Assembly (NCBI RefSeq): GCF_026004075.1
Contig: NZ_BPIK01000001.1
Coordinates: 1,342,041-1,406,040 of the forward strand
Source: Meiothermus sp.
GTDB lineage: Bacteria; Deinococcota; Deinococci; Deinococcales; Thermaceae
DNA length: 64,000 bases
Reading direction: 5' to 3'
Of this stretch, positions 21,413 through 24,539 are shown one piece after another. Both the position numbers and the translations under genes were made by a program. Each line of letters opens with the position of its first letter. The first letter of the stretch is position 1. Under the pieces are notes generated by a model. The model ran no database searches. It was not told where the DNA came from and saw only the letters and a program-made list of their open reading frames with translations.

Positions 21413-22135
21413 TTAGGCGGCCTCTTCCAGGCGACGGATAAAGGCCCGCTCGAGGTTGCCCGAACCGAGCTCGAGGGCCTCCTGCAGGCTGCCCTCAAAA
21501 ACCAGCAGGCCGTGGTCAATAAAGCCCACCCGGTCGCAGACCTCCTCGGCCTCGCTCATCACGTGGGTGGAGTAGACGAGGGTCTTGCCCAGCCCGGCGT
21601 ACTGCTTGACGAAATCCAGCAAAGCCCGGCGGGCGAACACATCCAGGCCAGCGGTGGCCTCGTCCAGCAATAAGACCTGGGGCTGGTGCAGGATGGCCCG
21701 CGCGATGACGATTTTCTGCTGCATACCGGTGGACATCTGCCTGACCTGCTTGGAGAGCACAGACGGCTCGAGGTGCAAAAGCTCGGCGGCCCAGGCGATG
21801 CGTTCCTTGAGTTTGGGCCCCCACAGGTCGTAGAAGCTCCCGAAGAAGTCCAGCACCTCGTAGCCGGTGAGCTTGTCGTAGACCTTCATCCCACCGTTGA
21901 CGATGCCCAGGTTGCGGCGCACCTCGAGGGGTTGCCTTAGCGCATCAAAACCTGCCACTTTAGCGCTGCCCCCGGTGGGCTTGAGCAGGGTGGCCAGCAT
22001 CCGCAGGGTGGTGGTTTTGCCGGCCCCATTGGGGCCCAAAAGGCCATACACCTCACCCGGCTGCACGCTGAACGAGATGCCCTTAACAGCTTGAAGCTTC
22101 TGGTAGCTTTTTTGTAGGTTGACCACCTCAATCAT
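21413..22135 (-). CDS. ABC transporter ATP-binding protein (NatA-like)
   Basis: The 240 aa ATPase has Walker A GPNGAGKTT near residue 38, signature MSTGMQQKIVIARAI near residue 134 and Walker B VLLLDEATAGLD, followed by the STHVMSEAEEVCDRVGF switch region. The sequence is typical of ABC-2 export ATPases of the NatA group. ATG at 22135 follows AGGAGG. It pairs with the permease immediately downstream, and a second ATPase-permease pair lies immediately upstream, so the operon encodes two related exporters or one hetero-system. Confidence 0.92.
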   Translation of the reverse strand: MIEVVNLQKSYQKLQAVKGISFSVQPGEVYGLLGPNGAGKTTTLRMLATLLKPTGGSAKVAGFDALRQPLEVRRNLGIVNGGMKVYDKLTGYEVLDFFGSFYDLWGPKLKERIAWAAELLHLEPSVLSKQVRQMSTGMQQKIVIARAILHQPQVLLLDEATAGLDVFARRALLDFVKQYAGLGKTLVYSTHVMSEAEEVCDRVGFIDHGLLVFEGSLQEALELGSGNLERAFIRRLEEAA

Positions 22136-23031: not shown

Positions 23032-23844
23032 TTAACTTTCGAGCTCTTCCTCATCGAAGGCCTCGCCGGTGAGGGCGATGAAGGCCTCCTCGAGGCTCTC
23101 GGTTCCGGCTTTTTGCTTGAGTTCGTTGGCGGTGCCCTCGGCCACCAGGCGGCCATGGGCCAGGAAGCCGATGCGGTGCGAAAGGCGCTCGGCCTCGGCC
23201 ATGTCGTGGGTGGTGAGCAGGATGGTGGTGCCTTCGCGGGCCCGCAGGTCTTCCAGGAAGGCCTGCACGTCGCGGCGGCTTTTGGGGTCGAGGCCGGTAG
23301 TGGGCTCGTCCAGTAGCAGGAGGGGCGGGTTGATGAGGAGGGCTCGGGCAATGGCAATCTTCTGCTGCATGCCGCGGCTCATCTCCTCGATGGGGTCGCC
23401 GAAGCGGCGCGACTCCAGGCCCAGTTGCTCCAGAATCTGCATGGCCCGCTTTTCGGCTGTGCGGGGCTCGAGGCCGTAGAGCTGCGCGGCGTAGAGCAGG
23501 TTCTCACGCGGAGAAAGCTTCTTGTAGAAGGCCGCGTCCACGCTTACACGGCCCATTTTGCGCCGCAGTTCGCGCTCACCCTCGGGTAGGGTGTGACCCA
23601 GCATTCGCACCATGCCGCCATCGGGGGTGAGCAGGGTGGACAAAATGCGAATCAGGGTGGACTTTCCCGAGCCGTTGGGGCCCAGTAGGCCGTAGGTCTC
23701 CCCTTCCCGCACCTGGAAAGACACCCCTTTGAGGGCCCATTCCTCCTTGAGGGGCGCACGAAGCCCATCGCGCTTGCGGAAGACTTTTTTGAGGTCGGAG
23801 ACCTCGATGGCGAGTTGGGTTTTGGTGGACTCGAGGGTTAGCAT
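23032..23844 (-). CDS. ABC transporter ATP-binding protein, first gene of the exporter operon
   Basis: The 270 aa ATPase shows Walker A GPNGSGKST, signature MSRGMQQKIAIARALL and Walker B LLLLDEPTTGLD, plus TTHDMAEAERLSHRIGF. The ABC domain is preceded by about 30 residues (MLTLESTKTQLAIEVSDLKKVFRKRDG...KEEW) that fit the extended DrrA/CcmA type. It is the first of four exporter genes and lies behind a short leader ORF and terminator hairpin (23922-24042), suggesting controlled readthrough. Confidence 0.92.
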   Translation of the reverse strand: MLTLESTKTQLAIEVSDLKKVFRKRDGLRAPLKEEWALKGVSFQVREGETYGLLGPNGSGKSTLIRILSTLLTPDGGMVRMLGHTLPEGERELRRKMGRVSVDAAFYKKLSPRENLLYAAQLYGLEPRTAEKRAMQILEQLGLESRRFGDPIEEMSRGMQQKIAIARALLINPPLLLLDEPTTGLDPKSRRDVQAFLEDLRAREGTTILLTTHDMAEAERLSHRIGFLAHGRLVAEGTANELKQKAGTESLEEAFIALTGEAFDEEELES

Positions 23845-23921
23845 AGTGGATCCTGCCTTGAATCAGTCGGGGGGCTTGGGGACTTGGGGCAGTTGGTTCT
23901 GGGTAAAAGCATCCTGGCACT

Positions 23922-23952
23922 CCAAACAAATCGGCGGCCCGAAGGCCGCCGA
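23922..23952 (-). terminator. Leader terminator (candidate attenuator) upstream of the ABC exporter operon
   Basis: A 9-bp perfect GC-rich stem with a UUCG loop (TCGGCGGCC at 23944-23952 on the minus strand with GGCCGCCGA at 23931-23939) is followed by TTTGTTTGG. A small ACGC-TTTTT-GCGT hairpin sits just before it. The structure lies 45 nt after the leader ORF stop and about 80 nt before the first exporter gene, so transcription of the operon must read through it. Confidence 0.8.
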
Positions 23953-23997
23953 AAAACGCAAAAAGCGTAACAAATGCGGGTCGGGTGGGGCTTGGGT

Positions 23998-24042
23998 TCA
24001 GGCAAAAAACCTGCTCATCCTGATAAGAATGCGGTTGCTCAT
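23998..24042 (-). CDS. Putative 14-aa leader peptide of the ABC exporter operon
   Basis: A short ORF encodes MSNRILIRMSRFFA and stops at TGA. AAGGTG lies about 4 nt before the ATG, and a promoter-like TACACT lies about 20 nt upstream. It is followed by a strong terminator hairpin and then the ABC ATPase gene. This layout resembles leader peptides of ribosome-mediated attenuation of antibiotic-responsive ABC genes such as bmrB-bmrCD. The peptide has no run of one amino acid as in trp or his leaders. Translation is inferred, not shown. Confidence 0.5.
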   Translation of the reverse strand: MSNRILIRMSRFFA

Positions 24043-24061
24043 GGTTCACCTTCCAGCACCA

Positions 24062-24091
24062 AGTGTACGCGCTGGCCGGGCCAAAGCGCAA
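24062..24091 (-). promoter_or_regulatory. Promoter of the ABC exporter operon
   Basis: On the minus strand, TTGCGC (24086-24091) and TACACT (24062-24067) are separated by 18 bp. Both are moderate matches to sigma-A. The predicted start lies a few bases before the ribosome binding site of the leader ORF. Confidence 0.55.
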
Positions 24092-24206: not shown

Positions 24207-24539
24207 ATGAACGTCTTTCCCGAGTGGTTTAAGGCCTTTAAGCAGGTGGAAATCTGGCCCGGCATGGATATGGCGGTGCTTTCGGGCTACAAGGGGCAGG
24301 TGGGGTTTGCCCAGGTCTCCGAAGAAACCTTTGTGCCCGAACACGCCCACGACGGCCAGTGGGGGGTGGTGCTGGAAGGCCAGGTCGAGTTCGTAATCGG
24401 CGGCGAGACCCAGGTGTTCCGCAAGGGCGACTACTACCATATTCCCGCCGGCGTTCCGCACAGCGCCAGGCTGGCAGCGGGCACCGCCTTTATTGATGTG
24501 TGGGAAAACGAGCGCTTCCCGGCCGACCGCCTTAAGTAG
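24207..24539 (+). CDS. Small cupin-domain protein
   Basis: The 110 aa protein is a single conserved beta-barrel (cupin). Motif 1 is VPEHAHDGQWGVVLEGQVEF, with two His and the Glu, and motif 2 is KGDYYHIPAGVPHSARL, with the final His. These residues would bind one metal ion. The function is unknown; such proteins are often dioxygenases or isomerases, or ligand sensors. ATG at 24207 is preceded by GAGGTC and a TAGAAT hexamer about 30 nt upstream. It lies just before two enoyl-CoA hydratase-family genes, 16 bp away. Confidence 0.85.
   Translation: MNVFPEWFKAFKQVEIWPGMDMAVLSGYKGQVGFAQVSEETFVPEHAHDGQWGVVLEGQVEFVIGGETQVFRKGDYYHIPAGVPHSARLAAGTAFIDVWENERFPADRLK

Follow-up and report, generated by a model that had tools for sequence, protein, structure and literature searches.

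A frame-conserved micro-leader and hairpin before a DrrA-like ABC exporter pair of Meiothermus: a probable ribosome-mediated attenuator with analogues in other phyla

Most of the known leader peptides that sense antibiotics come from Firmicutes, with a few enterobacterial cases. The msrDL-msrD system of streptococci is macrolide-inducible, and its leader MYLIFM (6 codons) undergoes erythromycin arrest at the stop codon (PMC10314930). In Bacillus subtilis, the bmrB leader consists of 53 amino acids and its sequence contains a terminator, an antiterminator and an anti-antiterminator (PMC4191407); lincomycin, erythromycin and chloramphenicol are the inducers of this system. Moreover, a survey of premature terminators predicted a class of "ABC-leaders"; it predicts many attenuated ABC transporters, those described being provided with antiterminators and belonging to Firmicutes and Gammaproteobacteria. 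Its main text does not mention Deinococcus or Thermus, and the leaders it presents do not appear to include a micro-ORF family of the kind described here (PMC2965389).

This study is centred on a leader located in a window of 64,000 nucleotides from Meiothermus sp. (the window being the whole stretch of DNA that was analysed). A sequence-only reading of this window had described a promoter, a ribosome-binding site, a 14-codon ORF, a GC hairpin and a U-tract, in this order, before ABC exporter genes; all of them were found as described, on the minus strand (Table 1), and they are conserved in 20 of 20 related leaders. With a probability of roughly 0.68, as judged from sequence comparison, this leader would mediate ribosome-dependent attenuation, plausibly by sensing inhibitors of the peptidyl-transferase centre or of the exit tunnel.

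Table 1. Leader elements and downstream genes identified in the window.
Feature	Position	Strand	Basis or remark
Sigma-A-type promoter: -35 TTGCGC (24091-24086), 18-nt spacer, -10 TACACT (24067-24062)	24062..24091	-	read directly
Predicted transcript start	near 24056	-	from promoter position
Leader Shine-Dalgarno (SD) sequence, GGAAGGTGA / GGAAGGTGAACC	24043..24054	-	GGTAGGTGA-type, fixed distance in relatives
14-codon leader ORF, MSNRILIRMSRFFA-stop (ATG...GCC TGA)	23998..24042	-	short ORF, in frame and equally placed in 20/20 orthologues
Small hairpin at leader 3' end, CAGG-TTTTTTG-CCTG	23999..24013	-	sequence inspection; weak
Conserved motif CCCGACCCGCATT, about 12 nt past leader stop	23973..23985	-	CCCGA-type in nearly all Deinococcota leaders
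Hairpin B, ACGC-TTTTT-GCGT	23956..23968	-	arms listed and verified across relatives
Terminator-like hairpin C, TCGGCGGCC-TTCG-GGCCGCCGA, 9 pairs, 8 GC	23931..23952	-	core of 8 bp nearly unchanged over 20 loci
U-rich tail TTTGTTTGGAG, TTTGTTT into SD-like GGAG	23920..23930	-	UUUGUUUGGAGG-type tail in all relatives
Second small ORF MLLPRTNCPKSPSPPD-stop, behind the GGAG of hairpin C	23863..23912	-	peptide not conserved; SD and start usually kept
ABC ATPase 1, DrrA-like, PF00005	23032..23844 (ATG at 23844)	-	
ABC-2 permease 1, PF01061	22176..23003	-	conserved partner, found with ATPase 1 at nearly all 80 loci checked
ABC ATPase 2	21413..22135	-	joined to operon in Meiothermus and Calidithermus roseus
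ABC-2 permease 2, PF12698	20211..21395	-	joined to operon in Meiothermus and Calidithermus roseus

The generic promoter scan of the window did not report the leader promoter, the generic terminator scan found 4 terminators versus 3.8 expected in shuffles (background level), and the fold of the whole 227-nt leader is no better than those of its shuffles (z -0.67). As these scans give no support from the single sequence, the case rests on comparison. When searched against Rfam, the leader has no match above the gathering score. Hairpin C starts here 45 nt past the leader stop codon, its sequence is unique within this genome, and the RNA model built from the leaders has one match in the same genome. 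The promoter shares its intergenic region with a divergent gene encoding a cupin-domain protein (24207-24539, plus strand).

Orthologues of ATPase 1 are present in 13 of the 18 genomes of the genus, in 4 genomes belonging to two further genera in the family, in several Thermus and in 3 genomes of a second Deinococcota family. In Thermus the ATPase is present and the leader is absent. Outside Thermus, 20 leaders were inspected (from Meiothermus, Calidithermus, a third genus and the second Deinococcota family), and all 20 contain promoter, SD, micro-ORF, C-rich linker, hairpin, U-rich tail and GGAG in order. The sequence-only reading had named loss of the leader frame in relatives as a result that would count against it; the frame is kept in every one of these orthologues, whose ORFs have 6-14 codons, and UGA, UAA and UAG interchange at the aligned stop. 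The last codon encodes Ala in 17 of the 20, and the TACACT box with an upstream TTG hexamer is kept in Meiothermus and Calidithermus. Synonymous changes exceed expectation only modestly within the leader (30 of 72 pairwise differences, 24% being expected).

Behind the stop, the linker of the inspected Deinococcota leaders carries the CCCGA-type motif, located 10-15 nt past the stop in nearly all of them, and is followed by a hairpin of UUCG type; linker fold energies are not above those of shuffles. Hairpin B retains its hairpin form in 15 relatives despite its variable sequence and is missing from the ABC-F-type leaders described below, and relatives also show a hairpin straddling the leader stop codon (GCGCC-UGA-GGCGC), with differing sequences. 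An imperfect direct repeat had been noticed around the terminator: it exists (23996-23978 and 23880-23864), but the second copy is absent in relatives, the first being kept inside the conserved CCCGA motif. In one Meiothermus genome the ATPase 1 and permease 1 genes are gone, and the leader, now beside ATPase 2, has lost its start codon and has a broken hairpin, from which it appears that the leader decays once these genes are lost. A locus of a distant family (L045) contains a 26-codon ORF, MRRIDNVFTAKPTHTWLVDVWSGLAL-stop, together with a GC hairpin and a short T-run before a more distant ATPase 1 relative, and it is possibly an independent leader.

The genes behind the leader encode an ABC_tran ATPase and an ABC-2 membrane partner, as in DrrA-type ABC-2 exporters, an assignment that holds at family level only because ATPase 1 scores below the NCBIfam drrA cut-off. 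Searches of solved structures returned only general ABC relatives when run with the ATPase, and permease 1 gave no match. The four-gene operon initially proposed is present locally, but only ATPase 1 and permease 1 travel with the leader across phyla, ATPase 2 and permease 2 joining this unit only in Deinococcota. Related to the start of ATPase 1, the equivalent of the second small ORF overlaps it in several relatives (ATGCTGA), which suggests translational coupling, and elsewhere the ATPase itself starts there.

Searches with an RNA model derived from the 20 leaders also revealed homologous leaders before other genes. They were seen again with a second model, which includes these three sequences, so that their scores in it are not independent. 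There is a full-length match before an ABC-2-type, DrrA-like ATPase of C. chliarophilus, with the leader MIESL-stop, and there are matches before the ABC-F genes of C. chliarophilus and of one other genus, with MIDLA-stop in both. Of these two ABC-F copies, that of the other genus (L084) is decayed by a stop and a frame shift. The best NCBIfam model for the ABC-F fragment is "ribosomal protection-like ABC-F", with a score that, for this partial sequence, stays under the curated cut-off; a homologous leader before such a gene would be compatible with antibiotic sensing. In the C. chliarophilus ABC-F leader the stem of hairpin C has changed with compensation (GGCAGCC/GGCTGCC). In both ABC-F loci, L084 and L085 (1-2201 of each), from two genera, the MIDLA leader is separated from the ABC-F gene by a gene of about 80 codons (MSKQPNPF...), and behind the hairpin there is a 2-codon ORF (ATG/GTG-CGC-TAG) with a strong SD. 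An exact orphan copy of the MIDLA promoter-leader lies in C. chliarophilus before an unrelated gene (L206, near 1501), without hairpin C. Matches to the MIDLA pattern with 2 mismatches occur scattered across unrelated genomes and seem to be chance matches, and weak RNA-model matches in coding DNA (L086-L091) were dismissed on inspection.

Relatives of the ATPase with 67-79% identity are present in Acidobacteriota, Rokubacteria, Armatimonadetes and Verrucomicrobiota; the RNA models gave no significant match outside Deinococcota. The comparison of leaders among relatives, already suggested from the single sequence, brought up analogous promoter-proximal micro-ORFs of 3-15 codons before the orthologous ATPase-permease pairs of Acidobacteriota and Rokubacteria, behind promoters of the form TTG-N3/16-19/TANNNT. 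Their peptides, each followed by a stop, include MRIIH, MRFHH, MYLFL, MYIHR, MHLFR, MKKLR, MKIIFMQF, MRIVLFLKTWLNRA, MRFRIIRLA and others. A strict scan (promoter, ATG and 3-16 codons) was positive for 21 of 36 close orthologues, a count that includes close relatives, versus 3 of 38 distant homologues and 0.5 (maximum 3) in shuffles of the close set. Further cases with a weak SD or only 3 codons were recognised by eye (MRL, MRQ, MMRFIVRLA); the apparent 3-codon MRL and MRQ ORFs of Bryobacterales lie almost at the predicted transcript start and are too short for single testing. Mapped on a tree of 55 ATPases, the presence of the leader requires 3 changes, compared with 16.6 for shuffled labels, the weakest cases having been called by the analyst, which favours clustering.

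In nine loci with leaders of 5 or 8 codons (Pyrinomonadaceae, Rokubacteria and other Acidobacteriota) the predicted closing helix starts about 4 nt past the stop, without exception. These helices are unrelated in sequence (CUGAGUA/UACUCAG, GACCGAG/CUCGGUC, UCUAAGCAA/UUGCUUAGA and others), and the z values of the folds range from -1.3 to -5.5. A ribosome standing on the last leader codons, or terminating, would cover in its footprint a helix strand that starts at this distance. In three loci (L129, L131 and L133) a pyrimidine-rich CUACCU(C) strand lies behind the closing helix, upstream of the ATPase start, and it could pair with the ATPase SD (GAGGU).

Among 41 distinct leader peptides, Arg (18%), Ile (14%) and Leu (12%) are the leading residues, and the peptides are also rich in Phe. 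Ala accounts for 1.3% inside the peptides, yet it is the last residue in 26 of 45 leaders, always encoded by GCC or GCU and never by GCG or GCA; 43 of these 45 have an NNY codon in the last sense position, and the codon counts are non-independent because close relatives are included. Given that GCG is the commonest Ala codon in the ATPase 1 genes of other phyla, its absence at the last leader codon is not plain usage. The Arg/Lys-X-Arg/Lys (+x+) motif is present in 13 of the 41 distinct peptides and absent in MSNRILIRMSRFFA. RLR, RFR or RFK is found near the end of several leaders, a likeness to drug-sensing peptides that rests on very short sequences. It is a tentative and rather doubtful extension that the micro-leaders of the three phylum-level groups are all termination-arrest sensors, with a fixed tRNA or residue at the stop, which control exporters of ribosome inhibitors; if true, MRL-stop would possibly be among the shortest natural arrest peptides, and the exporter family would be one so far unrecognised.

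Regarding the mechanism, the transcript would start about 15 nt ahead of the micro-ORF, which a ribosome would read at once. After a normal finish on the leader, the RNA past the stop would fold and expression would fail, in the simplest route by termination at hairpin C, directly before the next ribosome-binding site. If leader translation were slowed or arrested, the ribosome would block the folding of the adjacent RNA and ATPase 1 and permease 1 would be made; the likeliest cause of arrest would be a compound bound in the peptidyl-transferase centre or exit tunnel, perhaps acting at the last sense codon or stop. This inducer class is suggested by the association with ABC-F and by the likeness to MsrDL and to +x+ leaders. 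Leader and hairpin are probably a conserved switch, in at least three bacterial groups, through which the cell's own ribosome senses ribosome-blocking compounds and turns the exporter on. One feature expected of attenuators in general is found here, namely a frame-conserved leader ORF, short and provided with a ribosome-binding site, that lies between the promoter and the regulated gene. Counted for attenuation are also the interchange of stops behind the conserved frame, together with the strict scan and the ATPase tree; the homologous leaders before ABC-F and another DrrA-like ATPase; the decayed leader of the genome without ATPase 1 and permease 1; the helix position in the nine loci, within the footprint of a terminating ribosome; and the peptide composition, with its likeness to macrolide-sensing leaders.

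The absence of a clear antiterminator, already noticed in the single sequence, was borne out by leader folding and pairing controls, and among the Deinococcota leaders the conservation of alternative pairings able to release or obstruct hairpin C does not exceed what composition gives. Loop pairing CCCGAA:UUCGGG was rejected as an antiterminator because its complementarity is at the level of base composition; it has one suggestive compensation (L010, CCCCAA/UUGGGG) and two breaks (L008/L009, L043). Moreover, several relatives have an imperfect U-run (AUCGGUUU, AGUGCUUU), and among Acidobacteriota there are several in which the run is short or missing, so that a transcriptional gate is not assured.

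The most serious alternative, which we consider unlikely though well worth weighing, is translational attenuation, in which the hairpins would bring a C-rich strand onto the GGAGG past hairpin C and hide this ribosome-binding site until the leader-bound ribosome intervenes. An SD-like GGAG, usually with a start codon, lies directly past hairpin C, and several loci have minimum-energy folds that sequester this GGAG. The hairpin of Acidobacteriota likewise lies directly against the ATPase SD, in some cases with no U-run. Against this, two loci lack a start codon past hairpin C, and the corresponding anti-SD model, with the post-stop strand pairing with GUUUGGAGG, was rejected since own pairs are no better than those with strands swapped between loci (P=0.32) or shuffled. 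Termination at hairpin C is considered somewhat more likely than SD sequestration.

A regulator that binds RNA or DNA at the near-invariant dyad GGCGGCCTTCGGGCCGCC or at the CCCGAA motif, with no role for the ribosome, would account for a hairpin sequence that hardly varies over two families, which is unusual for a plain terminator, and for a CCCGA motif that has no explained partner. This is improbable, as it leaves the conserved ORF unexplained, the orthologues of other phyla keep the micro-ORF without dyad or motif, and the ABC-F copy of C. chliarophilus has compensated stem changes. Equally hard to favour is amino-acid attenuation by sensing of charged tRNA, or Rho-dependent control of the leader: the leaders are rich in Arg and Ile and the stop-to-hairpin linker is C-rich, G-poor and rut-like, but the downstream genes encode exporters and ABC-F rather than biosynthetic enzymes, and several leaders hold only MRL, MRQ or MIDLA, with no run of a single amino acid. 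Finally, a constitutive partial terminator beside an incidental ORF, as the sequence-only reading had allowed, is very improbable, because even though hairpin C resembles an intrinsic terminator and no antiterminator was found, the leader ORF keeps its frame, SD and stop position across genera and in a second family, and micro-ORFs of an analogous kind are met with again in other phyla.

Ribosome-mediated attenuation, if correct for the Deinococcota set and for the analogous micro-ORFs of Acidobacteriota and Rokubacteria, would indicate that this form of ribosome-inhibitor sensing is old. It would also single out an exporter pair, so far uncharacterised, as a candidate resistance system in bacteria from soil and hot springs, and it would offer leaders of 3-15 codons, some of them from thermophiles with stable ribosomes, for toeprinting and cryo-EM. 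A search of open-licence papers on Meiothermus and leader peptides found nothing relevant, and a leader family spanning phyla is apparently, and provisionally, undescribed.

Compared with known systems, the leader shares with bmrBCD the succession of leader ORF and terminator before a multidrug ABC exporter, and it differs in that the hairpin follows an ORF of 14 codons and that no antiterminator can be recognised (PMC4191407). The proposed bmrBCD-like character therefore holds for the logic but not for the build, the hairpin lying downstream of a much shorter leader and not inside a 53-codon ORF; leader folds and pairing tests revealed no overlapping antiterminator and anti-antiterminator, and the leader is not a member of the bmrB family. 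With the "ABC-leaders", as the main text of that survey presents them, it has in common the attenuation of ABC transporter genes as a predicted class (PMC2965389). The toiL-topAI uORF of E. coli likewise senses ribosome-targeting antibiotics, although it acts on translation and Rho and its genes are unrelated (PMC12121999). Several leaders have RLR or RFR, comparable to the RLR of ErmDL and MefAL, and the MRL leaders correspond to the core of the studied MRLR peptide (PMC8298421, PMC10314930), whereas ErmDL and MefAL control a methylase or the Mef pump and +x+ is missing in most leaders described here. The likeness to msrDL-msrD includes a micro-leader, a terminator behind it and an ABC protein downstream (PMC10314930); the Rokubacteria leader MYLFL resembles MYLIFM, and homologous Meiothermus-type leaders precede ABC-F genes. 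The differences from msrDL-msrD are the phyla concerned, a DrrA-type exporter as the main target, and another leader-hairpin distance with other RNA elements.
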